Assembly: GCA_027186245.1 (NCBI GenBank) | Contig: CP114488.1 | Location: forward strand, 5,623,501-5,687,500 | Length of the DNA stretch: 64,000 bases | DNA from: Coriaria nepalensis | Lineage: Eukaryota > Streptophyta > Magnoliopsida > Cucurbitales > Coriariaceae | Direction: 5' to 3' | Shown: positions 19,991-64,000 of the stretch, piece by piece | Position numbering within the stretch: position 1 is the stretch's first letter | Layout: every line of letters starts with the position of its first letter | The notes under the pieces: generated by a model | Seen by the model: the letters and a program-made list of their open reading frames with translations, nothing else | Databases searched by the model: none | What the model was told of the DNA's origin: nothing | Program-made: the position numbers and the translations under genes

Positions 19991-20026
19991 CAGAGAGAAA
20001 TAAAAGGATTCATAATAATGTTTGTA

Positions 20027-20860: not shown

Positions 20861-21061
20861 TTTGTGGGGTTAGCTTTTTGTAGCTTGTTTTTAGCTAAAT
20901 TGTCGCTTCGGGTTTTAGGTTGGTTGTGTTCTAGGTGTTGGTCGCCTCTTTAGGCAGCAGTTGTATTCTTTATTTTTTTTTTTCTATTGTGAGCTTGCTC
21001 ACCGTGTACTTGTAATCTTTCTTTTTTTGGAATATAAACTTACCTTTCAAAAAAAAAAAAA

Positions 21062-37075: not shown

Positions 37076-37109
37076 TTTTTTTTTTTTGAAAAGTAAGTTT
37101 ATATTCCAA
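35115..37109 (-). pseudogene. LINE ORF2 fragment (RT to zf-RVT), copy 1
   Basis: The 207-codon frame 36486-37109 holds AYDMVRWDFLQRS, GLRQGDPMSPYLF and an intact FADDLLLFS catalytic box. Its first codons (MEYKLTFQKKK) come from the poly(A) tail of the next LINE copy, so it is an accidental fusion. Further pieces are 36305-36733 (GIPLASTKLS, AGRVQLIN), 35942-36301 (PSKIMTNIDRVL, GGLGVKNIKEWNQ) and 35368-35754 with the zf-RVT cysteines. Frameshifts separate them. The poly-G tract here is 6 long (35234-35239). Confidence 0.88.
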
Positions 37110-39944: not shown

Positions 39945-39946
39945 TT
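38064..39946 (-). pseudogene. LINE ORF2 fragment, copy 2
   Basis: Same modules as copy 1: RT with GLHQGDPMSPYLF and FADDLLVFS (39353-39826), the 'GIPLASTKLS' segment (39172-39510), 38812-39168 (GGLGIKNIKEWNQ) and zf-RVT around 38300-38400. A two-base expansion near 39800 changes the frame at 'LQRSLEIMNF'. The Pro-coding tract is expanded to 17 G (38094-38110). Confidence 0.88.
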
Positions 39947-40641
39947 TTTTTTTTTTTGAAAAGTAAGTTTATATTCCAAAAAAGAAAAATTGCAAGTGCA
40001 CGGTGAGCAAGCTCACAGTAGCAAAATATAAAAAATACAGCAGCTTAAAAAGGCCACCAACACCTAAAACCCAACGAACCTAAAATCCGAAGCGACAAAT
40101 AAGCTATAAACAAGTTAGAAAAAGCTAACCCAACAAAGGACACTAGGGGATTCTCTCCCTTAACAAGAAAAGACCAAACCAAAAAATCGGGGAAACCCCC
40201 ATTACAAGAAACAACCAAGGGGCATACCCCAAGGTGGTCACAAGGGAGACCGCTACCCAACCTAACCTTGAGTAAAAAAACCCCCCTTTGGGGGAAAAAC
40301 CCAAGGTGGTCACCAAGGAGACCACTACCCATCGTCAAAAGAAAATAATTACAAAGCAAAGGGACATACCCCAGTGTGTCCACTACGGAGGCCACTGTCC
40401 ACATACAAAAAGTATAAGTGATGAAACTTATAGTGATCATCCGGAGGTTCATAACCCAGCATAATATGAAATAATCAAGTAAAAAATACGAGGGGAAAGC
40501 CCCAAGGAAGCCACCCAGGGAACCCCACCTTTCATCCAAAAACACAGCATGCAGCATATTAAATTAAAAAAGGGGGTTGGAGGATGGAAGCAAGCAAAAG
40601 AGGAGTAAAAATCGGGGTTGTTATCAACAAGACCCCACTTA

Positions 40642-40661
40642 ACCTTTCAAAAAAAAAAAAA
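40642..40661 (+). mobile_element. 20-bp LINE-tail nano-insertion with 16-bp target duplication
   Basis: The insert is 'acctttc' plus 13 A, identical to the LINE 3' terminus, in plus orientation within a minus-strand LINE. Perfect copies of aacaagaccccactta flank it at 40626-40641 and 40662-40677. The uninterrupted site is seen in copy 2 near 37743. Confidence 0.9.
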
Positions 40662-40775
40662 AACAAGACCCCACTTACCAAATTTAAGCCTATATAATAA
40701 AACATAATACGAGGGGCATATCTCAAGGAGTCCACCCATGGGACCCCACCAATCCACAAGGGAAACAAAACCCAA

Positions 40776-40929
40776 GGCAACAAACACCAAACATAAGCAA
40801 TACGAGGAGTAAACTCCAAGGAGGCCTCCAAGGAGACCCCACCTATCCACAAGGCAACAAACACCAAACGTAAGCAATACAAGGAGTAAACTCCACGGAG
40901 GCCTCCAAGAGGACCCCACCTATCAAAAC
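40776..40929. repeat. 77-bp tandem duplication in LINE 3' repeats
   Basis: 40776-40852 is repeated at 40853-40929 (both start 'ggcaacaaacaccaaac'). Copies 1 and 2 have a single unit here. Confidence 0.85.
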
Positions 40930-41466
40930 AAAAAAACAGGCAAACAGTGAGAGACAAGCAAACATGAGGAGAATTAAAGAGATATACCATTCCAATAATT
41001 CTAAATGTCAATGTCCGCATGCAAAGGAGGAGTAGGAAGGCTCTGAACTTTTATCTTGATTTGAGTCAATATCTTCATAGCAATGATACCCGGGGGGGTA
41101 CAAACGTTATCCTGAATTCTCTTATTTCTCTCTTTCCAAATATGGTAAACGAAGCCCGAAAACGCGATGAACCCTATACGATTAGATAATGATTGTGCCC
41201 AGGAAGCGCCGAAAACCAGATAATTTTATCATCCCAAGGGAGCAAGGGAGGAGGTATCACCATAAGACTCAAGACCCCAACCCAAACAGCAGCAGAGAAG
41301 GGGCAATCACCAAAGAGATGATCACGAGACTCCACATTCACGAAACATAAGTGACACACATTACAAGTAGGGGAGCCAAAAGAAAAGCACCTATCGAGAG
41401 TACTCAGCCGGTTGCGAATCGCAAGCCAATGAATTCTTGGAATGTGGTCTTTGCACTATACAATTT

Positions 41467-41647
41467 GATTAGTACAAGCCTAGCACATGGATTGATGCAT
41501 ATTCAGACCCAATTCAAGTTCCCGTTGGTCCCATTACAAGAGCTCGTGCGAAGAAATCAAAGAAGCGCTTAATGGGCTGATTCAAGTAACATGGGCTCAC
41601 GCCTATGCATGGAGGCCCATTGAAGGTTGTGAATGTGATTATAAAAA
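41467..41647 (+). repeat. Array unit 0 (partial, left border)
   Basis: The array starts inside the pol C-terminal tail ('gattagtacaagcctagcac' corresponds to 'gatgaggacaagcctagcac' in full units), abutting LINE zf-RVT sequence. There is no target duplication or LTR end at the border. Confidence 0.85.
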
Positions 41648-42914
41648 ATGGTATTCAGTAATTCAGTAGTTCATACCGATCATGAGTTCTTGAAACACTT
41701 AAAGGGCCAACACAATCTGAACAAACGATACGCTCATTGGGTGGAGTTCATTGAGACATTTCCATATGTCATTCATTACAAACAATGTAAGGAAAATGTT
41801 ATTGCAGATGCGCTTTCCCGAAGGTACAATCTTATCTCAACTCTTGACGCTAAACTGCTTGGACTAATATTTCGATCGATTTTGTTTTAGGTTTGCCTAG
41901 GTCTAAGAAAGGAAGAGATTATGTATTTGTGGTGGTGGATAAATTTTCTAAGATGGCACACTTTATCCCATGTCATAAAACTGATGATGCTTCCAATGTT
42001 GCTGATTTGTTCTTTAGAGAAATTGTGAGGCTTCATGGTATGCCTGGGACCATTGTTTCTGATAGGGATGCTAAATCTTTGAGTTATTTTTGGAAAACCT
42101 TGTGAGGAAAGTTAGGAACTAAATTATTATTTTCTACAACTTGTCATCCACAAACTGATGGTCAAACCGAGGTTGTGAATAGAACTTTATCTACTTTGTT
42201 GAGAGCTATAATTGAAAAGAATATTAAAACATGGGAAGATTGTTTACCGCATGTCGAGTTTGCATATAATCGTTCTATTCATTCTGCTACTAAGTATTCA
42301 CCATTTGAGATTGTTTATGGATTTAATCCTCTAACTCCATTGGATTTATCTCCATTACCTGTTTCTGAGCATGTTAACTTAGATTGAAAGAGGAAGGCTG
42401 ATTTTGTTAAGCAGATACATGAGAAGGCAAAGTTCAACATAGAGCGAAGAATTGAGCAACATGCAAAACAAGTTAACAAAGGGCGTCATAAGATAATTTT
42501 TGAACCCGGAGATTGGGTTTGGCTGCACATGAGGAAGGAACGATTTCTGGAACAAAGGCGTTCCAAAAGGGGATGGTCCATTTCAAGTTCTTGAAAGGAT
42601 CAATGATAATGCTTATAAGCTATATCTGCCTGGTGAGTATGCTGTAAGTGCTACTTTTAATACTGCTGCTGATTTAAGTCCTTTTGATATAGGCGACAAT
42701 TTGAGGACAAATCCTGCTAAAGAAGAGGAGAATGATGAGGACAAGCCTAGCACATGGATTGATGCATATTCAGACCCAATTCAAGTTCCCGTTGGTCCCA
42801 TTACAAGAGCTCATGCGAAGAAATCAAAAAAGCACTTAATGGGCTGATTCAAGTAACATGGGCTCACGCCTATGCATGGAGGCCCATTGAAGGTTGTGAA
42901 TGTGATTATAAAAA
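41648..42914 (+). repeat. Array unit 1 (1267 bp)
   Basis: The RNase H piece is open (41648-41890). Integrase is stopped by TGA after WKTL at about 42103, and a second stop follows EHVNLD (42385). It has private variants such as 'IIEKNIKTW' and '[10 protein letters not shown]'. Confidence 0.93.
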
Positions 42915-44181
42915 ATGGTATTCAGTAATTCAGTAGTTCATACCGATCATGAGTCCTTGAAACACTTAAAGGGCCAACACAAGCTGAACAAACGATACGC
43001 TCGTTGGGTGGAGTTCATTTAGACATTTCCATATGTCATTCATTACAAACAATGTAAGGAAAATGTTATTGCAGATGCGCTTTCCCGAAGGTACAATCTT
43101 ATCTCAACTCTTGACGCTAAACTGCTTGGACTAATATTTCGATCGATTTTGTTTTAGGTTTGCCTAGGTCTAAGAAAGGAAGAGATTATGTATTTGTGGT
43201 GGTGGATAAATTTTCTAAGATGGCACACTTTATCCCATGTCATAAAACTGATGATGCTTCCAATGTTGCTGATTTGTTCTTTAGAGAAATTGTGAGGCTT
43301 CATTGTATGCCTGGGACCATTGTTTCTGATAGGGATGCTAAATCTTTGAGTTATTTTTGGAAAACCTTGTGAGGAAAGTTAGGAACTAAATTATTATTTT
43401 CTACAACTTGTCATCCACAAACTGATGGTCAAACCGAGGTTGTGAATAGAACTTTATCTACTTTGTTGAGAGCTATAATTAAAAAGAATATTAAAACTTG
43501 GGAAGATTGTTTACCGCATGTCGAGTTTGCATACAATCGTTCTATTCATTCTGATACTAAGTATTCACCATTTGAGATTGTTTATGGATTTAATCCTCTA
43601 ACTCCACCGGATTTATCTCCATTACCTGTTTCTGAGCATGTTAACTTAGATTGAAAGAGGAAGGCTGATTTTGTTAAGCAGATACATGAGAAGGCAAAGT
43701 TCAACATAGAGCGAAGAATTGAGCAACATGCAAAACAAGCTAACAAAGGGCGTTATAAGATGATTTTTGAACCCGGAGAATGGGTTTGGCTGCACATGAG
43801 GAAGGAACGATTTCTGGAGCAAAGGCGTTCCAAAAGGGGATGGTCCATTTCAAGTTCTTGAAAGGATCAATGATAATGCTTATAAGCTATATCTGCCTGG
43901 TGAGTATGCTGTAAGTGCTACTTTTAATACTGCTGATGATTTAAGTCCTTTTGATATAGGTGACAATTTGAGGACAAATCCTGTAAAAGAAGAGGAGAAT
44001 GATGAGGACAAGCCTAGCACATAGATTGATACATATTCAGACCCAATTCAAGTTCCCGTTGGTCCCATTACAAGAGGTCGTGCGATGAAATCAAAGAAGC
44101 GCTTAATGGGCTGATTCAAGTAACATGGGCTCACGCCTATGCATGGAGGCCCATTGAAGGTTGTAAATGTGATTATAAAAA
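42915..44181 (+). repeat. Array unit 2 (type A, 1267 bp)
   Basis: The RNase H piece has its own stop (FIE changed to FI-stop, 'ttcatttagaca' near 43018). Like unit 4 it has a stop after EHVNLD and the tail 'cacatagattgat', which adds a stop in the C-terminal tail. Private change: HGMPG to HCMPG. Confidence 0.93.
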
Positions 44182-45452
44182 ATGGTATTCAGTAATTCAG
44201 TAGTTCATACCGATCATGAGTCCCTGAAACACTTAAAGGGCCAACACAAGCTGAACAAACGATACGCTCGTTGGGTGGAGTTCATTGAGACATTTCCATA
44301 TGTCATTCATTACAAACAATGTAAGGAAAATGTTATTGCAGATGCGCTTTCCCGAAAGTACAATCTTATCTCAACTCTTGACGCTAAACTGCTTGGACTA
44401 ATATTTCGATCGATTTTGTTTTAGGTTTGCCTAGGTCTAAGAAAGGAAGAGATTATGTATTTGTGGTGGTGGATAAATTTTCTAAGATGGCACACTTTAT
44501 CCCATGTCATAAAACTGATGATGCTTCCACTGTTGCTGATTTGTTCTTTAGAGATATTGTGAGGCTTCCTGGTATGCCTGGACCATTGTTTCTGATAGGG
44601 ATGCTAAATCTTTGAGTTATTTTTGGAAAACCATGTGAGGAAAGTTAGGAACTAAATTATTATTTTCTACAACTTGTCATCCACAAACTGATGGTCAAAC
44701 AGAGGTTGTGAATAGAACTCTATCTACTTTGTTGAGAGCTATAATTAAAAAGAATATTAAAACTTGGGAGGATTGTTTACCGTATGTCGAGTTTGCATAT
44801 AATCGTTCTATTCATTCTGCTACTAAGTATTCACCATTTGAGATTGTTTATGGATTTAATCCTCTAACTCCATTGGATTTATCTCCATTACCTGTTTCTG
44901 AGCATGTTAACTTAGATGGAAAGAGGAAGGCTGATTTTGTTAAGCAGATACATGAGAAGGCAAAGTTCAAAATAGAGCGAAGAATTGAGCAACATGCAAA
45001 ACAAGCTAACAAAGGGCGTCATAAGATGATTTTTGAACCCGGAGATTGGGTTTGGCTGCACATGAGGAAGGAACGATTTCTGGAGCAAAGTCGTTCCCAA
45101 AAGGGGATGGTCCATTTGAAGTTCTTGAAAGGATCAATGATAATGCTTATAAGCTATATCTGCCTGGTGAGTATGCTGTAAGTGCTACTTTATTAATACT
45201 GCTGCTGATTTAAGTCCTTTTGATATAGGCGACTATTTGAGGAAAAATCCTATAAAAGAAGAGGAGAATGATGAGGACAAGCCTAGCACATGGATTGATG
45301 CATATTCAGACCTAATTCAAGTTCTCGTTGGTCCCATTACAAGAGCTCGTGCGAAGAAATTCAAAGAAGCACTTCATGGGCTGATTCAAGTAACATGGGG
45401 CTCACGCCCATGCATGCAGGCCCATTGAAGGTGGTGAATGTGATTCTCAAAG
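44182..45452 (+). repeat. Array unit 3 (type B, 1271 bp)
   Basis: A one-base loss in 'cctggaccatt' shifts the integrase frame after GMPG. It shares [19 protein letters not shown] with unit 5. No stop after EHVNLD, so the core end is open from 44708 to 45181. An extra C in 'cgttcccaaaag' changes the C-terminal frame. Confidence 0.93.
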
Positions 45453-46719
45453 ATGGTATTCAGTAATTCAGTAGTTCATACCGATCATGAGTCCTTGAAA
45501 CACTTAAAGGGCCAACACAAGCTGAACAAACGATACGCTCATTAGGTGGAGTTCATTGAGACATTTCCATATGTCATTCATTACAAACAATGTAAGGAAA
45601 ATGTTATTGCAGATGCGCTTTCCCGAAGGTACAATCTTATCTCAACTCTTGACGGTAAACTGCTTGGACTAATATTTCGATCGATTTTGTTTTAGGTTTG
45701 CCTAGGTCTAAGAAAGGAAGAGATTATGTATTTGTGGTGGTGGATAAATTTTCTAAGATGGCACACTTTATCCCATGTCATAAAACTGATGATGCTTCCA
45801 ATGTTGCTGATTTGTTCTTTAGAGAAATTGTGAGGCTTCATGGTATGCCTGGGACCATTGTTTCTGATAGGGATGCTAAATCTTTGAGTTATTTTTGGAA
45901 AACCTTGTGAGGAAAGTTAGGAACTAAATTATTATTTTCTACAACTTGTCATCCACAAACTGATGGTCAAACCGAGGTTGTGAATAGAACTCTATCTACT
46001 TTGTTGAGAGCTATAATTAAAAAGAATATTAAAACTTGGGAGGATTGTTTACCGAATGTCGAGTTTGCATATAATCGTTCTATTCATTCTGCTACTAAGT
46101 ATTCACCATTTGAGATTGTTTATGGATTTAATCCTCTAACACCACTGGATTTATCTCCATTACCTGTTTCTGAGCATGTTAACTTAGATTGAAAGAGGAA
46201 GGCTGATTTTGTTAAGCAGATACATGAGAAGGCAAAGTTCAACATAGAGCGAAGAATTGAGCAACATGCAAAACAAGTTAACAAAGGGAGTCATAAGATG
46301 ATTTTTGAACCCGGAGATTGGGTTTGGCTGCACATGAGGAAGGAACGATTTCTGGAGCAAAGGCGTTCCAAAAGGGGATGGTCTATTTCAAGTTCTTGAA
46401 AGGATCAATGATAATGCTTATAAGTTATATCTGCCTGGTGAGTATGCTGTCAGTGCTACTTTTAATACTGCTGCTGATTTAAGTCCTTTTGATATAGGCG
46501 ACAATTTGAGGACAAATCCTATAAAAGAAGAGGAGAATGATGAGGACAAGCCTAGCACATAGATTGATGCATATTCAGACCCAATTCAAGTTCCCGTTGG
46601 TCCCATTACAAGAGGTTGTGCGATGAAATCAAAGAAGTGCTTAATGGGCTGATTCAAGTAACATGGGCTCACGCCTATGCATGGAGGCCCATTGAAGGTT
46701 GTAAATGTGATTATAAAAA
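45453..46719 (+). repeat. Array unit 4 (type A, 1267 bp)
   Basis: The RNase H piece is stopped by TAG replacing TGG in 'gctcattaggtggag'. The other diagnostic sites follow unit 2. Confidence 0.93.
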
Positions 46720-47984
46720 ATGGTATTCAGTAATTCAGTAGTTCATACCGATCATGAGTCCCTGAAACACTTAAAGGGCCAACACAAGCTGAACAAACGA
46801 TACGCTCGTTGGGTGGAGTTCATTGAGACATTTCCATATGTCATTCATTACAAACAATGTAAGGAAAATGTTATTGCAGATGCGCTTTCCCGAAAGTACA
46901 ATCTTATCTCAACTCTTGACGCTAAACTGCTTGGACTAATATTTCGATCGATTTTGTTTTAGGTTTGCCTAGGTCTAAGAAAGGAAGAGATTATGTATTT
47001 GTGGTGGTGGATAAATTTTCTAAGATGGCACACTTTATCCCATGTCATAAAACTGATGATGCTTCCACTGTTGCTGATTTGTTCTTTAGAGATATTGTGA
47101 GGCTTCCTGGTATGCCTGGACCATTGTTTCTGATAGGGATGCTAAATCTTTGAGTTACTTTTGGAAAACCATGTGCGGAAAGTTCGGAACTAAATTATTA
47201 TTTTCTACAACTTGTCATCCACAAACTGATGGTCAAACAGAGGTTGTGAATAGAACTCTATCTACTTTGTTGAGAGCTATAATTAAAAAGAATATTAAAA
47301 CTTGGGAGGATTGTTTACCGTATGTCGAGTTTGCATATAATCGTTCTATTCATTCTGCTACTAAGTATTCACTATTTGAGATTGTTTATGGATTTAATCC
47401 TCTAACTCCATTGGATTTATCTCCATTACCTGTTTCTGAGCATGTTAACTTAGATGGAAAGAGGAAGGCTGATTTTGTTAAGCAGATACATGAGAAGGCA
47501 AAGTTCAACATAGAGCGAAGAATTGAGCAACATGCAAAACAAGCTAACAAAGGGCGTCATCAGATGATTTTTGAACCCGGAGATTGCGTTTGGCTGCACA
47601 TGAGGAAGGAACGATTTCTGGAGCAAAGGCGTTCCCAAAAGGGGATGGTCCATTTCAAGTTCTTGAAAGGATCAATGATAATGCTTATAAGCTATATCTG
47701 CCTGGTGAGTATGCTGTAAGTGCTACTTTTAATACTGCTGATTTAAGTCCTCTAGATATAGGTGACAATTTGAGGACAAATCCTGTAAAAGAAGAGGAGA
47801 ATGATGAGGACAAGCCTAGCACATGGATTGATGCATATTCAGACCTAATTCAAGTTCTCGTTGGTCCCATTACAAGAGCTCGTGCGAAGAAATTCAAAGA
47901 AGCACTTCATGGGCTGATTCAAGTAACATGGGCTCACGCCCATGCATGCAGGCCCATTGAAGGTGGTGAATGTGATTCTCAAAG
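46720..47984 (+). repeat. Array unit 5 (type B, 1265 bp)
   Basis: Same one-base loss as unit 3. It is the only unit without the TGA after WKT, reading TMCGKFGTK, so 47150-47719 is open for 189 codons. Its tail is open (47584-48006) and matches the homogenised units to its right. Confidence 0.93.
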
Positions 47985-49249
47985 ATGGTATTCATTAATT
48001 CAGTAGTTCATACCGATCATGAGTCCTTGAAACGCTTAAAGGGCCAACACAAGCTGAACAAACGATACGCTCGTTGGGTGGAGTTCATTGAGACATTTCC
48101 ATATGTCATTCATTACAAACAATGTAAGGAAAATGTTATTGCAGATGCGCTTTCCCGAAGGTACAATCTTATCTCAACTCTTGACGCTAAACTGCTTGGA
48201 CTAATATTTCGATCGATTTTGTTTTAGGTTTGCCTAGGTCTAAGAAAGGAAGAGATTATGTATTTGTGGTGGTGGATAAATTTTCTAAGATGGAACACTT
48301 TATCCCATGTCATAAAACTGATGATGCTTCCAATGTTGCTGATTTGTTCTTTAGAGAAATTGTGAGGCTTCATGGTATGCCTGGGACCATTGTTTCTGAT
48401 AGGGATGCTAAATCTTTGAGTTATTTTTGGAAAACCTTGTGAGGAAAGTTAGGAACTAAATTATTATTTTCTACAACTTGTCATCCACAAACTGATGGTC
48501 AAACCGAGGTTGTGAATAGAACTTTATCTACTTTGTTGAGAGCTATAATTAAAAAGAATATTAAAAGTTGGGAAGATTGTTTACCGCATGTTGAGTTTGC
48601 ATATAATAGTTCTATTCATTCTGCTACTAAGTATTCACCATTTGAGATTGTTTATGGATTTAATCCTCTAACTCCATTGGATTTATCTCCATTACCCGTT
48701 TCTGAGCATGTTAACTTAGATGGAAAGAGGAAGGCTGATTTTGTTAAGCAGATACCTGAGAAGGCAAAGTTCAACATAGAGCGAAGAATTGAGCAACATG
48801 CAAAACAAGCTAACAAAGGGCGTCATAAGATGATTTTTGAACCCGGAGATTGGGTTTGGCTGCACATGAGGAAGGAACGATTTCTGGAGCAAAGGCGTTC
48901 CAAAAGGGGATGGTCCATTTCAAGTTCTTGAAAGGATCAATGATAATGCTTATAAGCTATATCTGCCTGGTGAGTATGCTGTAAGTGCTACTTTTAATAC
49001 TGCTGATTTAAGTCCTCTAGATATAGGTGACAATTTGAGGACAAATCCTGTAAAAGAAGAGGAGAATGATGAGGACAAGCCTAGCACATGGATTGATGCA
49101 TATTCAGACCTAATTCAAGTTCTCGTTGGTCCCATTACAAGAGCTCGTGCGAAGAAATTCAAAGAAGCACTTCATGGGCTGATTCAAGTAACATGGGCTC
49201 ACGCCCATGCATGCAGGCCCATTGAAGGTGGTGAATGTGATTCTCAAAG

Positions 49250-49492
49250 ATGGTATTCATTAATTCAGTAGTTCATACCGATCATGAGTCCTTGAAACGC
49301 TTAAAGGGCCAACACAAGCTGAACAAACGATACGCTCGTTGGGTGGAGTTCATTGAGACATTTCCATATGTCATTCATTACAAACAATGTAAGGAAAATG
49401 TTATTGCAGATGCGCTTTCCCGAAGGTACAATCTTATCTCAACTCTTGACGCTAAACTGCTTGGACTAATATTTCGATCGATTTTGTTTTAG
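49250..49492 (+). pseudogene. RNase H C-terminal piece (reference unit 7)
   Basis: It starts with MVFINS, created by the unit junction, then [30 protein letters not shown] and [12 protein letters not shown], the end of gypsy RNase H. It ends with [16 protein letters not shown], where the internal deletion joins the sequence to integrase. The first RNase H catalytic residues are upstream of the captured piece, so no activity is possible. Confidence 0.92.
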
Positions 49493-50196
49493 GTTTGCCT
49501 AGGTCTAAGAAAGGAAGAGATTATGTATTTGTGGTGGTGGATAAATTTTCTAAGATGGAACACTTTATCCCATGTCATAAAACTGATGATGCTTCCAATG
49601 TTGCTGATTTGTTCTTTAGAGAAATTGTGAGGCTTCATGGTATGCCTGGGACCATTGTTTCTGATAGGGATGCTAAATCTTTGAGTTATTTTTGGAAAAC
49701 CTTGTGAGGAAAGTTAGGAACTAAATTATTATTTTCTACAACTTGTCATCCACAAACTGATGGTCAAACCGAGGTTGTGAATAGAACTTTATCTACTTTG
49801 TTGAGAGCTATAATTAAAAAGAATATTAAAAGTTGGGAAGATTGTTTACCGCATGTTGAGTTTGCATATAATAGTTCTATTCATTCTGCTACTAAGTATT
49901 CACCATTTGAGATTGTTTATGGATTTAATCCTCTAACTCCATTGGATTTATCTCCATTACCCGTTTCTGAGCATGTTAACTTAGATGGAAAGAGGAAGGC
50001 TGATTTTGTTAAGCAGATACCTGAGAAGGCAAAGTTCAACATAGAGCGAAGAATTGAGCAACATGCAAAACAAGCTAACAAAGGGCGTCATAAGATGATT
50101 TTTGAACCCGGAGATTGGGTTTGGCTGCACATGAGGAAGGAACGATTTCTGGAGCAAAGGCGTTCCAAAAGGGGATGGTCCATTTCAAGTTCTTGA
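49480..50196 (+). pseudogene. Integrase core piece (reference unit 7)
   Basis: All three D,D-35-E codons survive: Asp in SIDFVLG (49480-49482), Asp in VSDRD (49663-49665) and Glu in QTEVVNR (49771-49773), 35 codons between the last two. A TGA at 49705-49707 (Trp in the family, WGKLGTK) lies between them in nearly every unit. After it the frame continues through [34 protein letters not shown] and [16 protein letters not shown] to a frameshift. The HHCC zinc finger is deleted, so this cannot be a working integrase. Confidence 0.93.
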
Positions 50197-50536
50197 AAGG
50201 ATCAATGATAATGCTTATAAGCTATATCTGCCTGGTGAGTATGCTGTAAGTGCTACTTTTAATACTGCTGATTTAAGTCCTCTAGATATAGGTGACAATT
50301 TGAGGACAAATCCTGTAAAAGAAGAGGAGAATGATGAGGACAAGCCTAGCACATGGATTGATGCATATTCAGACCTAATTCAAGTTCTCGTTGGTCCCAT
50401 TACAAGAGCTCGTGCGAAGAAATTCAAAGAAGCACTTCATGGGCTGATTCAAGTAACATGGGCTCACGCCCATGCATGCAGGCCCATTGAAGGTGGTGAA
50501 TGTGATTCTCAAAGATGGTATTCATTAATTCAGTAG
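50165..50536 (+). pseudogene. Integrase GPF module and pol tail (reference unit 7)
   Basis: In the frame after the shift the DNA reads [20 protein letters not shown], the GPF/Y module, then SATFNTADLSP, and from 50300 an open tail with KEEENDED, GPITRARAKKFKEAL and HGLIQVTW, ending at the stop next to the unit junction. TRARAKK tails are common at the pol C-terminus of plant gypsy elements. No chromodomain is present. Confidence 0.88.
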
Positions 50537-53500
50537 TTCATACCGATCATGAGTCCTTGAAACGCTTAAAGGGCCAACACAAGCTGAACAAACGATACGC
50601 TCGTTGGGTGGAGTTCATTGAGACATTTCCATATGTCATTCATTACAAACAATGTAAGGAAAATGTTATTGCAGATGCGCTTTCCCGAAGGTACAATCTT
50701 ATCTCAACTCTTGACGCTAAACTGCTTGGACTAATATTTCGATCGATTTTGTTTTAGGTTTGCCTAGGTCTAAGAAAGGAAGAGATTATGTATTTGTGGT
50801 GGTGGATAAATTTTCTAAGATGGAACACTTTATCCCATGTCATAAAACTGATGATGCTTCCAATGTTGCTGATTTGTTCTTTAGAGAAATTGTGAGGCTT
50901 CATGGTATGCCTGGGACCATTGTTTCTGATAGGGATGCTAAATCTTTGAGTTATTTTTGGAAAACCTTGTGAGGAAAGTTAGGAACTAAATTATTATTTT
51001 CTACAACTTGTCATCCACAAACTGATGGTCAAACCGAGGTTGTGAATAGAACTTTATCTACTTTGTTGAGAGCTATAATTAAAAAGAATATTAAAAGTTG
51101 GGAAGATTGTTTACCGCATGTTGAGTTTGCATATAATAGTTCTATTCATTCTGCTACTAAGTATTCACCATTTGAGATTGTTTATGGATTTAATCCTCTA
51201 ACTCCATTGGATTTATCTCCATTACCCGTTTCTGAGCATGTTAACTTAGATGGAAAGAGGAAGGCTGATTTTGTTAAGCAGATACCTGAGAAGGCAAAGT
51301 TCAACATAGAGCGAAGAATTGAGCAACATGCAAAACAAGCTAACAAAGGGCGTCATAAGATGATTTTTGAACCCGGAGATTGGGTTTGGCTGCACATGAG
51401 GAAGGAACGATTTCTGGAGCAAAGGCGTTCCAAAAGGGGATGGTCCATTTCAAGTTCTTGAAAGGATCAATGATAATGCTTATAAGCTATATCTGCCTGG
51501 TGAGTATGCTGTAAGTGCTACTTTTAATACTGCTGATTTAAGTCCTCTAGATATAGGTGACAATTTGAGGACAAATCCTGTAAAAGAAGAGGAGAATGAT
51601 GAGGACAAGCCTAGCACATGGATTGATGCATATTCAGACCTAATTCAAGTTCTCGTTGGTCCCATTACAAGAGCTCGTGCGAAGAAATTCAAAGAAGCAC
51701 TTCATGGGCTGATTCAAGTAACATGGGCTCACGCCCATGCATGCAGGCCCATTGAAGGTGGTGAATGTGATTCTCAAAGATGGTATTCATTAATTCAGTA
51801 GTTCATACCGATCATGAGTCCTTGAAACGCTTAAAGGGCCAACACAAGCTGAACAAACGATACGCTCGTTGGGTGGAGTTCATTGAGACATTTCCATATG
51901 TCATTCATTACAAACAATGTAAGGAAAATGTTATTGCAGATGCGCTTTCCCGAAGGTACAATCTTATCTCAACTCTTGACGCTAAACTGCTTGGACTAAT
52001 ATTTCGATCGATTTTGTTTTAGGTTTGCCTAGGTCTAAGAAAGGAAGAGATTATGTATTTGTGGTGGTGGATAAATTTTCTAAGATGGAACACTTTATCC
52101 CATGTCATAAAACTGATGATGCTTCCAATGTTGCTGATTTGTTCTTTAGAGAAATTGTGAGGCTTCATGGTATGCCTGGGACCATTGTTTCTGATAGGGA
52201 TGCTAAATCTTTGAGTTATTTTTGGAAAACCTTGTGAGGAAAGTTAGGAACTAAATTATTATTTTCTACAACTTGTCATCCACAAACTGATGGTCAAACC
52301 GAGGTTGTGAATAGAACTTTATCTACTTTGTTGAGAGCTATAATTAAAAAGAATATTAAAAGTTGGGAAGATTGTTTACCGCATGTTGAGTTTGCATATA
52401 ATAGTTCTATTCATTCTGCTACTAAGTATTCACCATTTGAGATTGTTTATGGATTTAATCCTCTAACTCCATTGGATTTATCTCCATTACCCGTTTCTGA
52501 GCATGTTAACTTAGATGGAAAGAGGAAGGCTGATTTTGTTAAGCAGATACCTGAGAAGGCAAAGTTCAACATAGAGCGAAGAATTGAGCAACATGCAAAA
52601 CAAGCTAACAAAGGGCGTCATAAGATGATTTTTGAACCCGGAGATTGGGTTTGGCTGCACATGAGGAAGGAACGATTTCTGGAGCAAAGGCGTTCCAAAA
52701 GGGGATGGTCCATTTCAAGTTCTTGAAAGGATCAATGATAATGCTTATAAGCTATATCTGCCTGGTGAGTATGCTGTAAGTGCTACTTTTAATACTGCTG
52801 ATTTAAGTCCTCTAGATATAGGTGACAATTTGAGGACAAATCCTGTAAAAGAAGAGGAGAATGATGAGGACAAGCCTAGCACATGGATTGATGCATATTC
52901 AGACCTAATTCAAGTTCTCGTTGGTCCCATTACAAGAGCTCGTGCGAAGAAATTCAAAGAAGCACTTCATGGGCTGATTCAAGTAACATGGGCTCACGCC
53001 CATGCATGCAGGCCCATTGAAGGTGGTGAATGTGATTCTCAAAGATGGTATTCATTAATTCAGTAGTTCATACCGATCATGAGTCCTTGAAACGCTTAAA
53101 GGGCCAACACAAGCTGAACAAACGATACGCTCGTTGGGTGGAGTTCATTGAGACATTTCCATATGTCATTCATTACAAACAATGTAAGGAAAATGTTATT
53201 GCAGATGCGCTTTCCCGAAGGTACAATCTTATCTCAACTCTTGACGCTAAACTGCTTGGACTAATATTTCGATCGATTTTGTTTTAGGTTTGCCTAGGTC
53301 TAAGAAAGGAAGAGATTATGTATTTGTGGTGGTGGATAAATTTTCTAAGATGGAACACTTTATCCCATGTCATAAAACTGATGATGCTTCCAATGTTGCT
53401 GATTTGTTCTTTAGAGAAATTGTGAGGCTTCATGGTATGCCTGGGACCATTGTTTCTGATAGGGATGCTAAATCTTTGAGTTATTTTTGGAAAACCTTGT

Positions 53501-56500
53501 GAGGAAAGTTAGGAACTAAATTATTATTTTCTACAACTTGTCATCCACAAACTGATGGTCAAACCGAGGTTGTGAATAGAACTTTATCTACTTTGTTGAG
53601 AGCTATAATTAAAAAGAATATTAAAAGTTGGGAAGATTGTTTACCGCATGTTGAGTTTGCATATAATAGTTCTATTCATTCTGCTACTAAGTATTCACCA
53701 TTTGAGATTGTTTATGGATTTAATCCTCTAACTCCATTGGATTTATCTCCATTACCCGTTTCTGAGCATGTTAACTTAGATGGAAAGAGGAAGGCTGATT
53801 TTGTTAAGCAGATACCTGAGAAGGCAAAGTTCAACATAGAGCGAAGAATTGAGCAACATGCAAAACAAGCTAACAAAGGGCGTCATAAGATGATTTTTGA
53901 ACCCGGAGATTGGGTTTGGCTGCACATGAGGAAGGAACGATTTCTGGAGCAAAGGCGTTCCAAAAGGGGATGGTCCATTTCAAGTTCTTGAAAGGATCAA
54001 TGATAATGCTTATAAGCTATATCTGCCTGGTGAGTATGCTGTAAGTGCTACTTTTAATACTGCTGATTTAAGTCCTCTAGATATAGGTGACAATTTGAGG
54101 ACAAATCCTGTAAAAGAAGAGGAGAATGATGAGGACAAGCCTAGCACATGGATTGATGCATATTCAGACCTAATTCAAGTTCTCGTTGGTCCCATTACAA
54201 GAGCTCGTGCGAAGAAATTCAAAGAAGCACTTCATGGGCTGATTCAAGTAACATGGGCTCACGCCCATGCATGCAGGCCCATTGAAGGTGGTGAATGTGA
54301 TTCTCAAAGATGGTATTCATTAATTCAGTAGTTCATACCGATCATGAGTCCTTGAAACGCTTAAAGGGCCAACACAAGCTGAACAAACGATACGCTCGTT
54401 GGGTGGAGTTCATTGAGACATTTCCATATGTCATTCATTACAAACAATGTAAGGAAAATGTTATTGCAGATGCGCTTTCCCGAAGGTACAATCTTATCTC
54501 AACTCTTGACGCTAAACTGCTTGGACTAATATTTCGATCGATTTTGTTTTAGGTTTGCCTAGGTCTAAGAAAGGAAGAGATTATGTATTTGTGGTGGTGG
54601 ATAAATTTTCTAAGATGGAACACTTTATCCCATGTCATAAAACTGATGATGCTTCCAATGTTGCTGATTTGTTCTTTAGAGAAATTGTGAGGCTTCATGG
54701 TATGCCTGGGACCATTGTTTCTGATAGGGATGCTAAATCTTTGAGTTATTTTTGGAAAACCTTGTGAGGAAAGTTAGGAACTAAATTATTATTTTCTACA
54801 ACTTGTCATCCACAAACTGATGGTCAAACCGAGGTTGTGAATAGAACTTTATCTACTTTGTTGAGAGCTATAATTAAAAAGAATATTAAAAGTTGGGAAG
54901 ATTGTTTACCGCATGTTGAGTTTGCATATAATAGTTCTATTCATTCTGCTACTAAGTATTCACCATTTGAGATTGTTTATGGATTTAATCCTCTAACTCC
55001 ATTGGATTTATCTCCATTACCCGTTTCTGAGCATGTTAACTTAGATGGAAAGAGGAAGGCTGATTTTGTTAAGCAGATACCTGAGAAGGCAAAGTTCAAC
55101 ATAGAGCGAAGAATTGAGCAACATGCAAAACAAGCTAACAAAGGGCGTCATAAGATGATTTTTGAACCCGGAGATTGGGTTTGGCTGCACATGAGGAAGG
55201 AACGATTTCTGGAGCAAAGGCGTTCCAAAAGGGGATGGTCCATTTCAAGTTCTTGAAAGGATCAATGATAATGCTTATAAGCTATATCTGCCTGGTGAGT
55301 ATGCTGTAAGTGCTACTTTTAATACTGCTGATTTAAGTCCTCTAGATATAGGTGACAATTTGAGGACAAATCCTGTAAAAGAAGAGGAGAATGATGAGGA
55401 CAAGCCTAGCACATGGATTGATGCATATTCAGACCTAATTCAAGTTCTCGTTGGTCCCATTACAAGAGCTCGTGCGAAGAAATTCAAAGAAGCACTTCAT
55501 GGGCTGATTCAAGTAACATGGGCTCACGCCCATGCATGCAGGCCCATTGAAGGTGGTGAATGTGATTCTCAAAGATGGTATTCATTAATTCAGTAGTTCA
55601 TACCGATCATGAGTCCTTGAAACGCTTAAAGGGCCAACACAAGCTGAACAAACGATACGCTCGTTGGGTGGAGTTCATTGAGACATTTCCATATGTCATT
55701 CATTACAAACAATGTAAGGAAAATGTTATTGCAGATGCGCTTTCCCGAAGGTACAATCTTATCTCAACTCTTGACGCTAAACTGCTTGGACTAATATTTC
55801 GATCGATTTTGTTTTAGGTTTGCCTAGGTCTAAGAAAGGAAGAGATTATGTATTTGTGGTGGTGGATAAATTTTCTAAGATGGAACACTTTATCCCATGT
55901 CATAAAACTGATGATGCTTCCAATGTTGCTGATTTGTTCTTTAGAGAAATTGTGAGGCTTCATGGTATGCCTGGGACCATTGTTTCTGATAGGGATGCTA
56001 AATCTTTGAGTTATTTTTGGAAAACCTTGTGAGGAAAGTTAGGAACTAAATTATTATTTTCTACAACTTGTCATCCACAAACTGATGGTCAAACCGAGGT
56101 TGTGAATAGAACTTTATCTACTTTGTTGAGAGCTATAATTAAAAAGAATATTAAAAGTTGGGAAGATTGTTTACCGCATGTTGAGTTTGCATATAATAGT
56201 TCTATTCATTCTGCTACTAAGTATTCACCATTTGAGATTGTTTATGGATTTAATCCTCTAACTCCATTGGATTTATCTCCATTACCCGTTTCTGAGCATG
56301 TTAACTTAGATGGAAAGAGGAAGGCTGATTTTGTTAAGCAGATACCTGAGAAGGCAAAGTTCAACATAGAGCGAAGAATTGAGCAACATGCAAAACAAGC
56401 TAACAAAGGGCGTCATAAGATGATTTTTGAACCCGGAGATTGGGTTTGGCTGCACATGAGGAAGGAACGATTTCTGGAGCAAAGGCGTTCCAAAAGGGGA

Positions 56501-59500
56501 TGGTCCATTTCAAGTTCTTGAAAGGATCAATGATAATGCTTATAAGCTATATCTGCCTGGTGAGTATGCTGTAAGTGCTACTTTTAATACTGCTGATTTA
56601 AGTCCTCTAGATATAGGTGACAATTTGAGGACAAATCCTGTAAAAGAAGAGGAGAATGATGAGGACAAGCCTAGCACATGGATTGATGCATATTCAGACC
56701 TAATTCAAGTTCTCGTTGGTCCCATTACAAGAGCTCGTGCGAAGAAATTCAAAGAAGCACTTCATGGGCTGATTCAAGTAACATGGGCTCACGCCCATGC
56801 ATGCAGGCCCATTGAAGGTGGTGAATGTGATTCTCAAAGATGGTATTCATTAATTCAGTAGTTCATACCGATCATGAGTCCTTGAAACGCTTAAAGGGCC
56901 AACACAAGCTGAACAAACGATACGCTCGTTGGGTGGAGTTCATTGAGACATTTCCATATGTCATTCATTACAAACAATGTAAGGAAAATGTTATTGCAGA
57001 TGCGCTTTCCCGAAGGTACAATCTTATCTCAACTCTTGACGCTAAACTGCTTGGACTAATATTTCGATCGATTTTGTTTTAGGTTTGCCTAGGTCTAAGA
57101 AAGGAAGAGATTATGTATTTGTGGTGGTGGATAAATTTTCTAAGATGGAACACTTTATCCCATGTCATAAAACTGATGATGCTTCCAATGTTGCTGATTT
57201 GTTCTTTAGAGAAATTGTGAGGCTTCATGGTATGCCTGGGACCATTGTTTCTGATAGGGATGCTAAATCTTTGAGTTATTTTTGGAAAACCTTGTGAGGA
57301 AAGTTAGGAACTAAATTATTATTTTCTACAACTTGTCATCCACAAACTGATGGTCAAACCGAGGTTGTGAATAGAACTTTATCTACTTTGTTGAGAGCTA
57401 TAATTAAAAAGAATATTAAAAGTTGGGAAGATTGTTTACCGCATGTTGAGTTTGCATATAATAGTTCTATTCATTCTGCTACTAAGTATTCACCATTTGA
57501 GATTGTTTATGGATTTAATCCTCTAACTCCATTGGATTTATCTCCATTACCCGTTTCTGAGCATGTTAACTTAGATGGAAAGAGGAAGGCTGATTTTGTT
57601 AAGCAGATACCTGAGAAGGCAAAGTTCAACATAGAGCGAAGAATTGAGCAACATGCAAAACAAGCTAACAAAGGGCGTCATAAGATGATTTTTGAACCCG
57701 GAGATTGGGTTTGGCTGCACATGAGGAAGGAACGATTTCTGGAGCAAAGGCGTTCCAAAAGGGGATGGTCCATTTCAAGTTCTTGAAAGGATCAATGATA
57801 ATGCTTATAAGCTATATCTGCCTGGTGAGTATGCTGTAAGTGCTACTTTTAATACTGCTGATTTAAGTCCTCTAGATATAGGTGACAATTTGAGGACAAA
57901 TCCTGTAAAAGAAGAGGAGAATGATGAGGACAAGCCTAGCACATGGATTGATGCATATTCAGACCTAATTCAAGTTCTCGTTGGTCCCATTACAAGAGCT
58001 CGTGCGAAGAAATTCAAAGAAGCACTTCATGGGCTGATTCAAGTAACATGGGCTCACGCCCATGCATGCAGGCCCATTGAAGGTGGTGAATGTGATTCTC
58101 AAAGATGGTATTCATTAATTCAGTAGTTCATACCGATCATGAGTCCTTGAAACGCTTAAAGGGCCAACACAAGCTGAACAAACGATACGCTCGTTGGGTG
58201 GAGTTCATTGAGACATTTCCATATGTCATTCATTACAAACAATGTAAGGAAAATGTTATTGCAGATGCGCTTTCCCGAAGGTACAATCTTATCTCAACTC
58301 TTGACGCTAAACTGCTTGGACTAATATTTCGATCGATTTTGTTTTAGGTTTGCCTAGGTCTAAGAAAGGAAGAGATTATGTATTTGTGGTGGTGGATAAA
58401 TTTTCTAAGATGGAACACTTTATCCCATGTCATAAAACTGATGATGCTTCCAATGTTGCTGATTTGTTCTTTAGAGAAATTGTGAGGCTTCATGGTATGC
58501 CTGGGACCATTGTTTCTGATAGGGATGCTAAATCTTTGAGTTATTTTTGGAAAACCTTGTGAGGAAAGTTAGGAACTAAATTATTATTTTCTACAACTTG
58601 TCATCCACAAACTGATGGTCAAACCGAGGTTGTGAATAGAACTTTATCTACTTTGTTGAGAGCTATAATTAAAAAGAATATTAAAAGTTGGGAAGATTGT
58701 TTACCGCATGTTGAGTTTGCATATAATAGTTCTATTCATTCTGCTACTAAGTATTCACCATTTGAGATTGTTTATGGATTTAATCCTCTAACTCCATTGG
58801 ATTTATCTCCATTACCCGTTTCTGAGCATGTTAACTTAGATGGAAAGAGGAAGGCTGATTTTGTTAAGCAGATACCTGAGAAGGCAAAGTTCAACATAGA
58901 GCGAAGAATTGAGCAACATGCAAAACAAGCTAACAAAGGGCGTCATAAGATGATTTTTGAACCCGGAGATTGGGTTTGGCTGCACATGAGGAAGGAACGA
59001 TTTCTGGAGCAAAGGCGTTCCAAAAGGGGATGGTCCATTTCAAGTTCTTGAAAGGATCAATGATAATGCTTATAAGCTATATCTGCCTGGTGAGTATGCT
59101 GTAAGTGCTACTTTTAATACTGCTGATTTAAGTCCTCTAGATATAGGTGACAATTTGAGGACAAATCCTGTAAAAGAAGAGGAGAATGATGAGGACAAGC
59201 CTAGCACATGGATTGATGCATATTCAGACCTAATTCAAGTTCTCGTTGGTCCCATTACAAGAGCTCGTGCGAAGAAATTCAAAGAAGCACTTCATGGGCT
59301 GATTCAAGTAACATGGGCTCACGCCCATGCATGCAGGCCCATTGAAGGTGGTGAATGTGATTCTCAAAGATGGTATTCATTAATTCAGTAGTTCATACCG
59401 ATCATGAGTCCTTGAAACGCTTAAAGGGCCAACACAAGCTGAACAAACGATACGCTCGTTGGGTGGAGTTCATTGAGACATTTCCATATGTCATTCATTA

Positions 59501-61899
59501 CAAACAATGTAAGGAAAATGTTATTGCAGATGCGCTTTCCCGAAGGTACAATCTTATCTCAACTCTTGACGCTAAACTGCTTGGACTAATATTTCGATCG
59601 ATTTTGTTTTAGGTTTGCCTAGGTCTAAGAAAGGAAGAGATTATGTATTTGTGGTGGTGGATAAATTTTCTAAGATGGAACACTTTATCCCATGTCATAA
59701 AACTGATGATGCTTCCAATGTTGCTGATTTGTTCTTTAGAGAAATTGTGAGGCTTCATGGTATGCCTGGGACCATTGTTTCTGATAGGGATGCTAAATCT
59801 TTGAGTTATTTTTGGAAAACCTTGTGAGGAAAGTTAGGAACTAAATTATTATTTTCTACAACTTGTCATCCACAAACTGATGGTCAAACCGAGGTTGTGA
59901 ATAGAACTTTATCTACTTTGTTGAGAGCTATAATTAAAAAGAATATTAAAAGTTGGGAAGATTGTTTACCGCATGTTGAGTTTGCATATAATAGTTCTAT
60001 TCATTCTGCTACTAAGTATTCACCATTTGAGATTGTTTATGGATTTAATCCTCTAACTCCATTGGATTTATCTCCATTACCCGTTTCTGAGCATGTTAAC
60101 TTAGATGGAAAGAGGAAGGCTGATTTTGTTAAGCAGATACCTGAGAAGGCAAAGTTCAACATAGAGCGAAGAATTGAGCAACATGCAAAACAAGCTAACA
60201 AAGGGCGTCATAAGATGATTTTTGAACCCGGAGATTGGGTTTGGCTGCACATGAGGAAGGAACGATTTCTGGAGCAAAGGCGTTCCAAAAGGGGATGGTC
60301 CATTTCAAGTTCTTGAAAGGATCAATGATAATGCTTATAAGCTATATCTGCCTGGTGAGTATGCTGTAAGTGCTACTTTTAATACTGCTGATTTAAGTCC
60401 TCTAGATATAGGTGACAATTTGAGGACAAATCCTGTAAAAGAAGAGGAGAATGATGAGGACAAGCCTAGCACATGGATTGATGCATATTCAGACCTAATT
60501 CAAGTTCTCGTTGGTCCCATTACAAGAGCTCGTGCGAAGAAATTCAAAGAAGCACTTCATGGGCTGATTCAAGTAACATGGGCTCACGCCCATGCATGCA
60601 GGCCCATTGAAGGTGGTGAATGTGATTCTCAAAGATGGTATTCATTAATTCAGTAGTTCATACCGATCATGAGTCCTTGAAACGCTTAAAGGGCCAACAC
60701 AAGCTGAACAAACGATACGCTCGTTGGGTGGAGTTCATTGAGACATTTCCATATGTCATTCATTACAAACAATGTAAGGAAAATGTTATTGCAGATGCGC
60801 TTTCCCGAAGGTACAATCTTATCTCAACTCTTGACGCTAAACTGCTTGGACTAATATTTCGATCGATTTTGTTTTAGGTTTGCCTAGGTCTAAGAAAGGA
60901 AGAGATTATGTATTTGTGGTGGTGGATAAATTTTCTAAGATGGAACACTTTATCCCATGTCATAAAACTGATGATGCTTCCAATGTTGCTGATTTGTTCT
61001 TTAGAGAAATTGTGAGGCTTCATGGTATGCCTGGGACCATTGTTTCTGATAGGGATGCTAAATCTTTGAGTTATTTTTGGAAAACCTTGTGAGGAAAGTT
61101 AGGAACTAAATTATTATTTTCTACAACTTGTCATCCACAAACTGATGGTCAAACCGAGGTTGTGAATAGAACTTTATCTACTTTGTTGAGAGCTATAATT
61201 AAAAAGAATATTAAAAGTTGGGAAGATTGTTTACCGCATGTTGAGTTTGCATATAATAGTTCTATTCATTCTGCTACTAAGTATTCACCATTTGAGATTG
61301 TTTATGGATTTAATCCTCTAACTCCATTGGATTTATCTCCATTACCCGTTTCTGAGCATGTTAACTTAGATGGAAAGAGGAAGGCTGATTTTGTTAAGCA
61401 GATACCTGAGAAGGCAAAGTTCAACATAGAGCGAAGAATTGAGCAACATGCAAAACAAGCTAACAAAGGGCGTCATAAGATGATTTTTGAACCCGGAGAT
61501 TGGGTTTGGCTGCACATGAGGAAGGAACGATTTCTGGAGCAAAGGCGTTCCAAAAGGGGATGGTCCATTTCAAGTTCTTGAAAGGATCAATGATAATGCT
61601 TATAAGCTATATCTGCCTGGTGAGTATGCTGTAAGTGCTACTTTTAATACTGCTGATTTAAGTCCTCTAGATATAGGTGACAATTTGAGGACAAATCCTG
61701 TAAAAGAAGAGGAGAATGATGAGGACAAGCCTAGCACATGGATTGATGCATATTCAGACCTAATTCAAGTTCTCGTTGGTCCCATTACAAGAGCTCGTGC
61801 GAAGAAATTCAAAGAAGCACTTCATGGGCTGATTCAAGTAACATGGGCTCACGCCCATGCATGCAGGCCCATTGAAGGTGGTGAATGTGATTCTCAAAG

Positions 61900-63238
61900 A
61901 TGGTATTCATTAATTCAGTAGTTCATACCGATCATGAGTCCTTGAAACGCTTAAAGGGCCAACACAAGCTGAACAAACGATACGCTCGTTGGGTGGAGTT
62001 CATTGAGACATTTCCATATGTCATTCATTACAAACAATGTAAGGAAAATGTTATTGCAGATGCGCTTTCCCGAAGGTACAATCTTATCTCAACTCTTGAC
62101 GCTAAACTGCTTGGACTAATATTTCGATCGATTTTGTTTTAGGTTTGCCTAGGTCTAAGAAAGGAAGAGATTATGTATTTGTGGTGGTGGATAAATTTTC
62201 TAAGATGGAACACTTTATCCCATGTCATAAAACTGATGATGCTTCCAATGTTGCTGATTTGTTCTTTAGAGAAATTGTGAGGCTTCATGGTATGCCTGGG
62301 ACCATTGTTTCTTGTGAGGCTTCATGGTATGCCTGGGACCATTGTTTCTTGTGAGGCTTCATGGTATGCCTGGGACCATTGTTTCTGATAGGGATGCTAA
62401 ATCTTTGAGTTATTTTTGGAAAACCTTGTGAGGAAAGTTAGGAACTAAATTATTATTTTCTACAACTTGTCATCCACAAACTGATGGTCAAACCGAGGTT
62501 GTGAATAGAACTTTATCTACTTTGTTGAGAGCTATAATTAAAAAGAATATTAAAAGTTGGGAAGATTGTTTACCGCATGTTGAGTTTGCATATAATAGTT
62601 CTATTCATTCTGCTACTAAGTATTCACCATTTGAGATTGTTTATGGATTTAATCCTCTAACTCCATTGGATTTATCTCCATTACCCGTTTCTGAGCATGT
62701 TAACTTAGATGGAAAGAGGAAGGCTGATTTTGTTAAGCAGATACCTGAGAAGGCAAAGTTCAACATAGAGCGAAGAATTGAGCAACATGCAAAACAAGCT
62801 AACAAAGGGCGTCATAAGATGATTTTTGAACCCGGAGATTGGGTTTGGCTGCACATGAGGAAGGAACGATTTCTGGAGCAAAGGCGTTCCAAAAGGGGAT
62901 GGTCCATTTCAAGTTCTTGAAAGGATCAATGATAATGCTTATAAGCTATATCTGCCTGGTGAGTATGCTGTAAGTGCTACTTTTAATACTGCTGATTTAA
63001 GTCCTCTAGATATAGGTGACAATTTGAGGACAAATCCTGTAAAAGAAGAGGAGAATGATGAGGACAAGCCTAGCACATGGATTGATGCATATTCAGACCT
63101 AATTCAAGTTCTCGTTGGTCCCATTACAAGAGCTCGTGCGAAGAAATTCAAAGAAGCACTTCATGGGCTGATTCAAGTAACATGGGCTCACGCCCATGCA
63201 TGCAGGCCCATTGAAGGTGGTGAATGTGATTCTCAAAG
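61900..63238 (+). repeat. Array unit 17 (1339 bp) with 37-bp triplication
   Basis: Identical to its neighbours except for two extra copies of a 37-bp word in integrase. This replaces the codons after GTIVS with an out-of-frame end ([13 protein letters not shown]). Confidence 0.95.
62277..62386 (+). repeat. 37-bp tandem triplication
   Basis: Units start at 62277, 62314 and 62351 with 'gtgaggcttcatggtatgcc'. They are joined through 'tttctt|gtgagg', a junction present in no other array unit. Confidence 0.97.
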
Positions 63239-64000
63239 ATGGTATTCATTAATTCAGTAGTTCATACCGATCATGAGTCCTTGAAACGCTTAAAGGGCCA
63301 ACACAAGCTGAACAAACGATACGCTCGTTGGGTGGAGTTCATTGAGACATTTCCATATGTCATTCATTACAAACAATGTAAGGAAAATGTTATTGCAGAT
63401 GCGCTTTCCCGAAGGTACAATCTTATCTCAACTCTTGACGCTAAACTGCTTGGACTAATATTTCGATCGATTTTGTTTTAGGTTTGCCTAGGTCTAAGAA
63501 AGGAAGAGATTATGTATTTGTGGTGGTGGATAAATTTTCTAAGATGGAACACTTTATCCCATGTCATAAAACTGATGATGCTTCCAATGTTGCTGATTTG
63601 TTCTTTAGAGAAATTGTGAGGCTTCATGGTATGCCTGGGACCATTGTTTCTGATAGGGATGCTAAATCTTTGAGTTATTTTTGGAAAACCTTGTGAGGAA
63701 AGTTAGGAACTAAATTATTATTTTCTACAACTTGTCATCCACAAACTGATGGTCAAACCGAGGTTGTGAATAGAACTTTATCTACTTTGTTGAGAGCTAT
63801 AATTAAAAAGAATATTAAAAGTTGGGAAGATTGTTTACCGCATGTTGAGTTTGCATATAATAGTTCTATTCATTCTGCTACTAAGTATTCACCATTTGAG
63901 ATTGTTTATGGATTTAATCCTCTAACTCCATTGGATTTATCTCCATTACCCGTTTCTGAGCATGTTAACTTAGATGGAAAGAGGAAGGCTGATTTTGTTA
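63239..64000 (+). repeat. Array unit 18 (cut by window end)
   Basis: The first 762 bp of a standard homogenised unit; the right border of the array is outside the window. Confidence 0.95.

Follow-up and report, generated by a model that had tools for sequence, protein, structure and literature searches.

An array of retrotransposon-derived units on contig C8

We analyzed a 64,000-nucleotide window of the Coriaria nepalensis genome (C8:5623501-5687500, in an assembly of 316 Mb and 20 contigs), whose right-hand part is occupied by a tandem array derived from a Ty3/gypsy retrotransposon. A BLAST search with one unit against the window and downstream loci placed the array between window position 41466 and C8:5709432 (extended position 85932, counting on from the window), a span of 44,467 bp with 35 unit junctions and an incomplete final unit. 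The original prediction, made from the window alone, had described head-to-tail units of 1265-1271 bp beginning at 41467 and extending over more than 22.5 kb. The head-to-tail arrangement held, as 18 units start in the window and the array runs off its end, but the start moved by one base and the real extent proved greater. The usual unit length is as predicted, except for a single unit of 1339 bp in the window (61918-63256). Nine longer units exist in the whole array (four of 1302 bp and five of 1339 bp), one of which starts within the window. Their extra length comes from a 37-bp integrase-core piece that is present two or three times.

Pfam matches to three of the four translated pieces of the unit supported the predicted composition of RNase H end, integrase core, and pol tail. 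The RNase H end (PF17917, E = 4.4e-5, 24.0 bits) and the integrase core (PF00665, E = 1.9e-7, 31.7 bits) scored just below their cut-offs of 24.8 and 32.6 bits, and the SH3-like integrase tail (Tf2-1-like; PF24626, E = 1e-10) scored 42 bits against a cut-off of 30. No Pfam match was found for the fourth piece. Comparison with relatives of the element at other loci in the genome showed the unit to be a single element stretch with one internal gap: 198 bp of RNase H end, the gap, and then the integrase core, its tail, and about 200 bp more. The gap measures approximately 364 bp, a size taken from relative L014. In agreement with the predicted deletion of the integrase zinc finger, the stretch that lies between RNase H and the integrase core in the relatives is absent from the unit. 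We labeled this stretch a zinc finger from its position and reading frame in relative L018 rather than from a domain scan.

The unit had been predicted to contain no long terminal repeat (LTR), which turned out to be incorrect: every unit contains about 200 bp from the 5' end of the ~760-bp LTR of the relatives. With numbering from the start of RNase H, unit positions 1065-1265 align with the 3' LTR of the relatives, directly after the integrase. This LTR piece recurs as the 5' LTR, some 4 kb before the RNase H stretch, in four of nine loci (L016, L017, L018, and L020). Among the five remaining loci, this upstream region fell beyond the fetched piece, was missing (L015), or belonged to a locus holding only an element fragment (L021 and L022). 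LTR sequence is found inside the unit because the integrase frame extends into the 3' LTR. For example, the LTR of L014 starts at TGATGAGGACAAGCC and encodes an open reading frame of 260 amino acids from residue 213 onward (its last 48 residues).

Two junctions characterize the unit (Table 1), and each was sought as a sequence pattern throughout the 316-Mb assembly. At three or fewer mismatches, junction 1 and junction 2 had 35 matches each, all inside the array, while the reversed-pattern controls had 0; an old array more changed at both junctions would escape this search. Full-length unit matches in a whole-genome search came from the array only (39 of 100 candidates scored), and of the loci examined outside the array, the nearest match was a 431-bp fragment on C12 with 96.5% identity. 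Because neither junction matched at any second locus, this is a single-locus array and not a genome-wide satellite. The claim that a fragment had been amplified into a satellite is narrowed: it holds for a satellite-like, pol-derived array, but neither for a unit made of pol only nor for a dispersed satellite. A chance product is excluded by the 11 successive equal-length units without any difference, together with the 35 junction matches versus 0 in the control.

One candidate for a second array, a cluster at C1:5.97-6.01 Mb, was rejected. It consists of four integrase-tail-plus-LTR pieces without junction 1, at least three of which lie inside larger segmental duplications. Within this cluster (L033-L036, C1:5970001-6010000), a 9.9-kb segment is duplicated at 97%, and each copy carries an integrase-tail-plus-LTR piece of the parent family.

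We also considered, and rejected, a coding function for the unit as a domesticated integrase fragment. Its length of 1265 bp is not a multiple of 3, it contains in-frame stops, and its RNase H and tail pieces are in a different frame from that of the integrase core. Within the integrase stretch, changes were distributed 12/9/15 over codon positions 1/2/3, with no clear third-position excess (36 of the 80 distinct differences between five left units and one core unit). A promoter in the LTR piece was likewise rejected. The TATA-like sites of the L016 and L018 LTRs lie at position 518 or beyond, outside of the ~200 bp kept, and a core unit had no TATA-like sites on either strand. The array is most likely non-coding selfish tandem DNA, and no tested feature points to a function.

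Edges, flanking DNA, and the parent element

The left edge of the array is the LTR terminus itself (Table 1). We estimate that an array ending in random phase would stop there by chance about 1 time in 1265. The site into which the element inserted is a tandem repeat derived from a long interspersed nuclear element (LINE), and the corresponding empty site, CAATT directly followed by TTAGCCC, is uninterrupted in three other LINE copies. The LINE tandem comprises two complete copies, which share 97% identity across a compared 600-bp piece, and a third copy cut by the array. One of its frames matches the reverse transcriptase domain PF00078. A related LINE copy on the other strand, at 13.7-21 kb of the window, has matches to DUF4283 and zf-RVT; overall, 4 of 10 frames scanned gave a match of any kind. 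The ~2.87-kb repeat also occurs at window positions 18192-21060 on the other strand, and further copies of the 600-bp LINE piece lie upstream at C8:5.608-5.619 Mb. The LINE tandem is a second transposon-derived tandem adjoining the array.

The right edge of the array falls within the integrase tail (query position 1198) and adjoins a frame that resembled LINE ORF1 by eye. Outside the array, no further pieces of the parent element were found in the 174 kb read. The monomers here are therefore not embedded in a complete gypsy element, a finding that would have counted against the original prediction had they always been so. The DNA to the right contains other repeats. A third tandem at extended positions 90039-95158 (C8:5713539-5718658) consists of some three copies, each ~2.1-2.2 kb long except for a partial final one, at about 80-82% identity. 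Further on, a ~510-bp sequence is present in two tandem copies that are 99.8% alike (extended 99379-100398, C8:5722879-5723898), and near it a 3.2-kb segment is repeated 7.7 kb away at 97%.

Table 1. Coordinates of the array and adjoining features (window positions)
Feature	Position	Strand	Remarks
Tandem LINE-derived repeat, ~2.87-kb period	34218..41465	-	Element inserted in last copy
CAATT, candidate 5-bp target-site sequence before LTR	41461..41465	+	No matching right copy (right end truncated)
Left half of array	41466..64000	+	18 unit starts inside; from one-unit BLAST and whole-genome junction patterns
First ~200 bp of LTR from 5' terminus, left array end	41466..41665	+	Starts TGATTAG; TGATGAG in relatives
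Junction 1, LTR position ~202 joined to RNase H stretch	41665..41666	+	8-mer GTARTTCA in two copies
RNase H C-terminal stretch, first unit	41666..41863	+	
Junction 2, ~364 bp including integrase zinc-finger region lost	41863..41864	+	6-bp microhomology CTTGGA
Integrase core and tail, first unit	41864..42732	+	Frame interrupted by stops (reading frames taken from a core unit)
LTR piece (~200 bp) closing first unit	42733..42932	+	Next junction 1 at 42932/42933
Homogenized core, eleven units without any difference	48003..61917	+	
37-bp integrase-core segment, three tandem copies (1339-bp unit)	62275..62386	+	Two or three copies in 8 more units downstream of window

The relatives reveal what the parent element may have looked like. 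In L016, the LTR reads TGATGAGG...TATCA, starting with TGATG, and the element is ~6.5 kb long; L018 is similar, but its 5' LTR starts with TAATG. Self-comparison of L016 and L018 gave LTRs of ~760 bp with 10-13% divergence between the two ends. In both relatives a purine tract precedes the 3' LTR, and TGGTATCAGAGC, a putative tRNA-Met-type primer binding site, stands after the 5' LTR. Three relatives were inspected at both termini for target-site duplications, and two had one of 5 bp (ACTAC in L016 and ATTAC in L018), with L020 being unclear. The LTR-encoded tail contains GPITRARAKKFKEAL, a block that may correspond to the published CR motif. Within it, P-I/V/M-T-R is kept in 13 of 14 aligned named plant relatives, which were hand-chosen among 120 integrase relatives listed (of 4235); those with species names are flowering plants. 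In group A CRM elements, the polyprotein frame continues into the 3' LTR, the LTRs measure 299-1225 bp with TGATG...T/CATCA ends, the elements measure 5.1-10.2 kb, and the target-site duplication is 5 bp (PMC3059260). The relatives share the frame into the 3' LTR, the LTR ends, the sizes, and the 5-bp duplication. Judged by these features, the parent resembles a CRM-like Ty3/gypsy element of the group A type.

Copies of the parent family tended to lie near the middle of contigs. We scored 150 reverse transcriptase rows of 1700 candidates, with identity to the L014 reverse transcriptase being at least 70% in 23 rows, 62-66% in three, and 60% or less in the rest. For the position test, we kept 132 of the 150 rows, omitting 15 rows on C1 (58 Mb and possibly composite; two of these rows were 66% identical), one on C3 (62%), and two evenly spaced repeat rows on C3. 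Of the 132 rows, the 61 on eight contigs were used. Copies with at least 70% identity had a mean distance from the contig midpoint (0.5) of 0.086 (n = 12) versus 0.24 for other Ty3 reverse transcriptases (n = 49; one-sided p = 0.0005), and 2 of the 12 were off-centre at 0.67 and 0.82. The array lies at 0.47 of C8, a position that fits, but does not prove, a centromere-proximal place.

Two relatives were found in or beside other satellites: L022 (C19:4742000-4751999) with a ~142-bp satellite, and L018 (C4:7039.2-7041.4 kb) with a ~210-bp satellite. It is possible that these are centromere repeats of this genome. Within the 174 kb surrounding the array, the ~142-bp satellite had no match, and the ~210-bp repeat had 14 short matches (21-52 bp), which we read as low-complexity and rejected.

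Origin, growth, and age of the array

We consider it likely that the array descends from a CRM-like insertion in the LINE repeat that suffered internal deletions and then grew in place by exchange between its two LTR pieces. A CRM-like Ty3/gypsy element would have inserted into the LINE repeat in the middle part of C8. Internal deletions, one running from LTR position ~202 to RNase H and the other removing the zinc finger, would have left the structure LTR[1-202]~RNaseH-(zinc finger deleted)-integrase-LTR. The ~200-bp LTR pieces at both ends would then have served as direct repeats, allowing unequal sister-chromatid exchange and/or non-allelic gene conversion to add units in place while the left end stayed fixed at the LTR terminus. 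In later rounds, the right-hand ~38 kb would have been homogenized, multi-unit blocks copied, and the 37-bp internal duplication co-amplified. The LTR piece probably enabled the amplification. What the unit is made of, its two junctions, the array's start at the LTR terminus, the empty site, the confinement to one locus, and the contrast between diverged left-hand and homogenized right-hand units are all observed, whereas we infer the order of the deletions and the mechanism of exchange.

The distribution of differences along the array bears on how it grew. Pairwise comparison of its five leftmost units gave 16 to 46 substitutions plus indels, while units from 48003 rightward differ by at most 7 substitutions, and 15 of the 35 BLAST rows are identical letter for letter. 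At the leftmost edge, the LTR piece has 5 differences in 200 positions from the LTR piece of the first unit and 13 from that of the core. In a tree, twelve array units were set apart from ten relatives with a support of 100. Within the array, units 1, 2, and 4 were separated from units 3, 5, and the core, forming two groups whose members are interleaved at the left end. Alternation of 1265- and 1339-bp units implies that blocks of two units were copied. Since each junction has 35 matches, all in the array, both junctions most likely predate amplification.

The original prediction had proposed excision of a circle followed by rolling-circle amplification. In this scenario, circular DNA of 1.27 kb, or a one-LTR circle of the deleted element, was amplified and its product inserted at C8. 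It would account for both junctions being common to 35 units, all of them head to tail, and the identical blocks are consistent with late amplification. However, the array's left end coincides exactly with the LTR terminus, and the insertion site is intact there, which a circle does not predict; the divergent units at the left edge are what growth in place predicts. A circle recombining into a resident LTR is a possible variant. Overall, a circle is not needed and fits more poorly, and we regard it as unlikely.

Several observations weigh against growth in place from a CRM-like insertion. At junction 2, the microhomology CTTGGA is present at the left gap edge in 6/6 relatives, with the array retaining one copy, but at the right edge it is exact in only 2/6 and inexact, with small differences, in the other four. 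At junction 1, 5/6 relatives have the 8-mer GTAGTTCA on the LTR side and 5/6 have it on the RNase H side, and the array retains both copies (one reading GTAATTCA or TTAATTCA). Simple slippage between direct repeats does not fit this double 8-mer, as it would leave a single copy; end joining may have produced it, and is the sole explanation that we offer under this reading. To the right of the array, no full 3' LTR, target-site copy, or rest of the LINE was found in 58 kb. The CRM membership of the parent is based on structure and not on a reference tree. Finally, copy number in the identical stretch is known from the assembly only.

A multimer formed during reverse transcription, by template switching between LTR pieces, could have integrated as a short array that later expanded by unequal exchange. 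Such a multimer explains why the array starts at an LTR terminus and could also account for the double 8-mer at junction 1. Nevertheless, 44 kb far exceeds one reverse transcript and junction 1 is matched nowhere else in the assembly, though one event would suffice; we place this origin slightly below the circle in probability. It is very improbable that the array is an artefact of one or a few units mis-expanded during assembly, even with 15 of 35 rows identical and the assembly as the only basis, given that the five left units are so diverged, that right-hand units are anchored by up to 7 substitutions and by differences in 37-bp copy number, and that no N occurs in the window or in 80 kb downstream.

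Unit divergence offers a rough age. At a substitution rate of 1.3e-8 per site and year, the most diverged pair (46/1265) would be about 1.4 million years old. The slower rate of 6.1e-9 per site and year (quoted in PMC12371157) would place it at about 3 million years. The right part (7/1265) would be, again roughly, at most about 0.5 million years old.

Comparison with known satellites

The closest known systems are the maize repeats CRM1TR and CRM4TR, for which a growth model was proposed that starts from LTR-UTR~LTR (UTR, untranslated region), an internally deleted element with flanking LTR pieces (Sharma et al. 2013, PMC3648361). As in maize, the repeats described here come entirely from a CR element, provided that the CRM assignment of the parent holds, and the monomer includes part of the LTR. 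The maize repeats, with monomers of about 0.7-1.4 kb, likewise occupy just one or two loci on a single chromosome. They are centromeric or lie close to the centromere, a likeness that for our array depends on contig position. CRM1TR also shares an internal short repeat in variable number and local homogenization (PMC3648361). Unlike the maize monomers, which combine LTR and UTR, the unit here is RNaseH-integrase-LTR[1-202], a mirror image. Because of this composition, the array is not CRM1TR or CRM4TR but a sibling kind. Moreover, the left insertion end and the empty site are preserved here, and the accessible text on the maize arrays describes no such end (PMC3648361).

Other satellites are more distant. 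The gag-derived 250-bp repeat of wheat relatives and E3900 of rye are likewise coding regions of retroelements in tandem, but they come from gag (PMC9659126, PMC3648361), and "gag or pol domains" have been named as sources of satellites (PMC12628747). Ogre satellites of Lathyrus are likewise arrays from Ty3/gypsy elements, expanded in primary constrictions, but they start from short tandem repeats inside the 3' UTR, unlike the LTR-flanked deleted element here (PMC7004042). In the literature searched, mostly outside subscription papers and available in part, we found no RNaseH-integrase-LTR or integrase-derived satellite unit.

The locus bears on how new centromere-proximal satellites start, since a founding insertion end, its empty site, and two founding deletions survive here. 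We tentatively suggest that the array may be a satellite caught at birth, which kept its original insertion end such that the whole path of insertion, two deletions, LTR-piece exchange, and homogenization can be followed in a single place. The type of LTR seen in group A CRM elements, which encodes part of the integrase, might in this way enable RNaseH-integrase-LTR units to become seeds of new centromeric repeats. By comparing accessions at this one locus, the LTR-piece-exchange model proposed for maize (PMC3648361) can be put to the test. The process itself has close maize precedents, and what is new here is not the phenomenon but the mirror-image unit and the preserved birth end.

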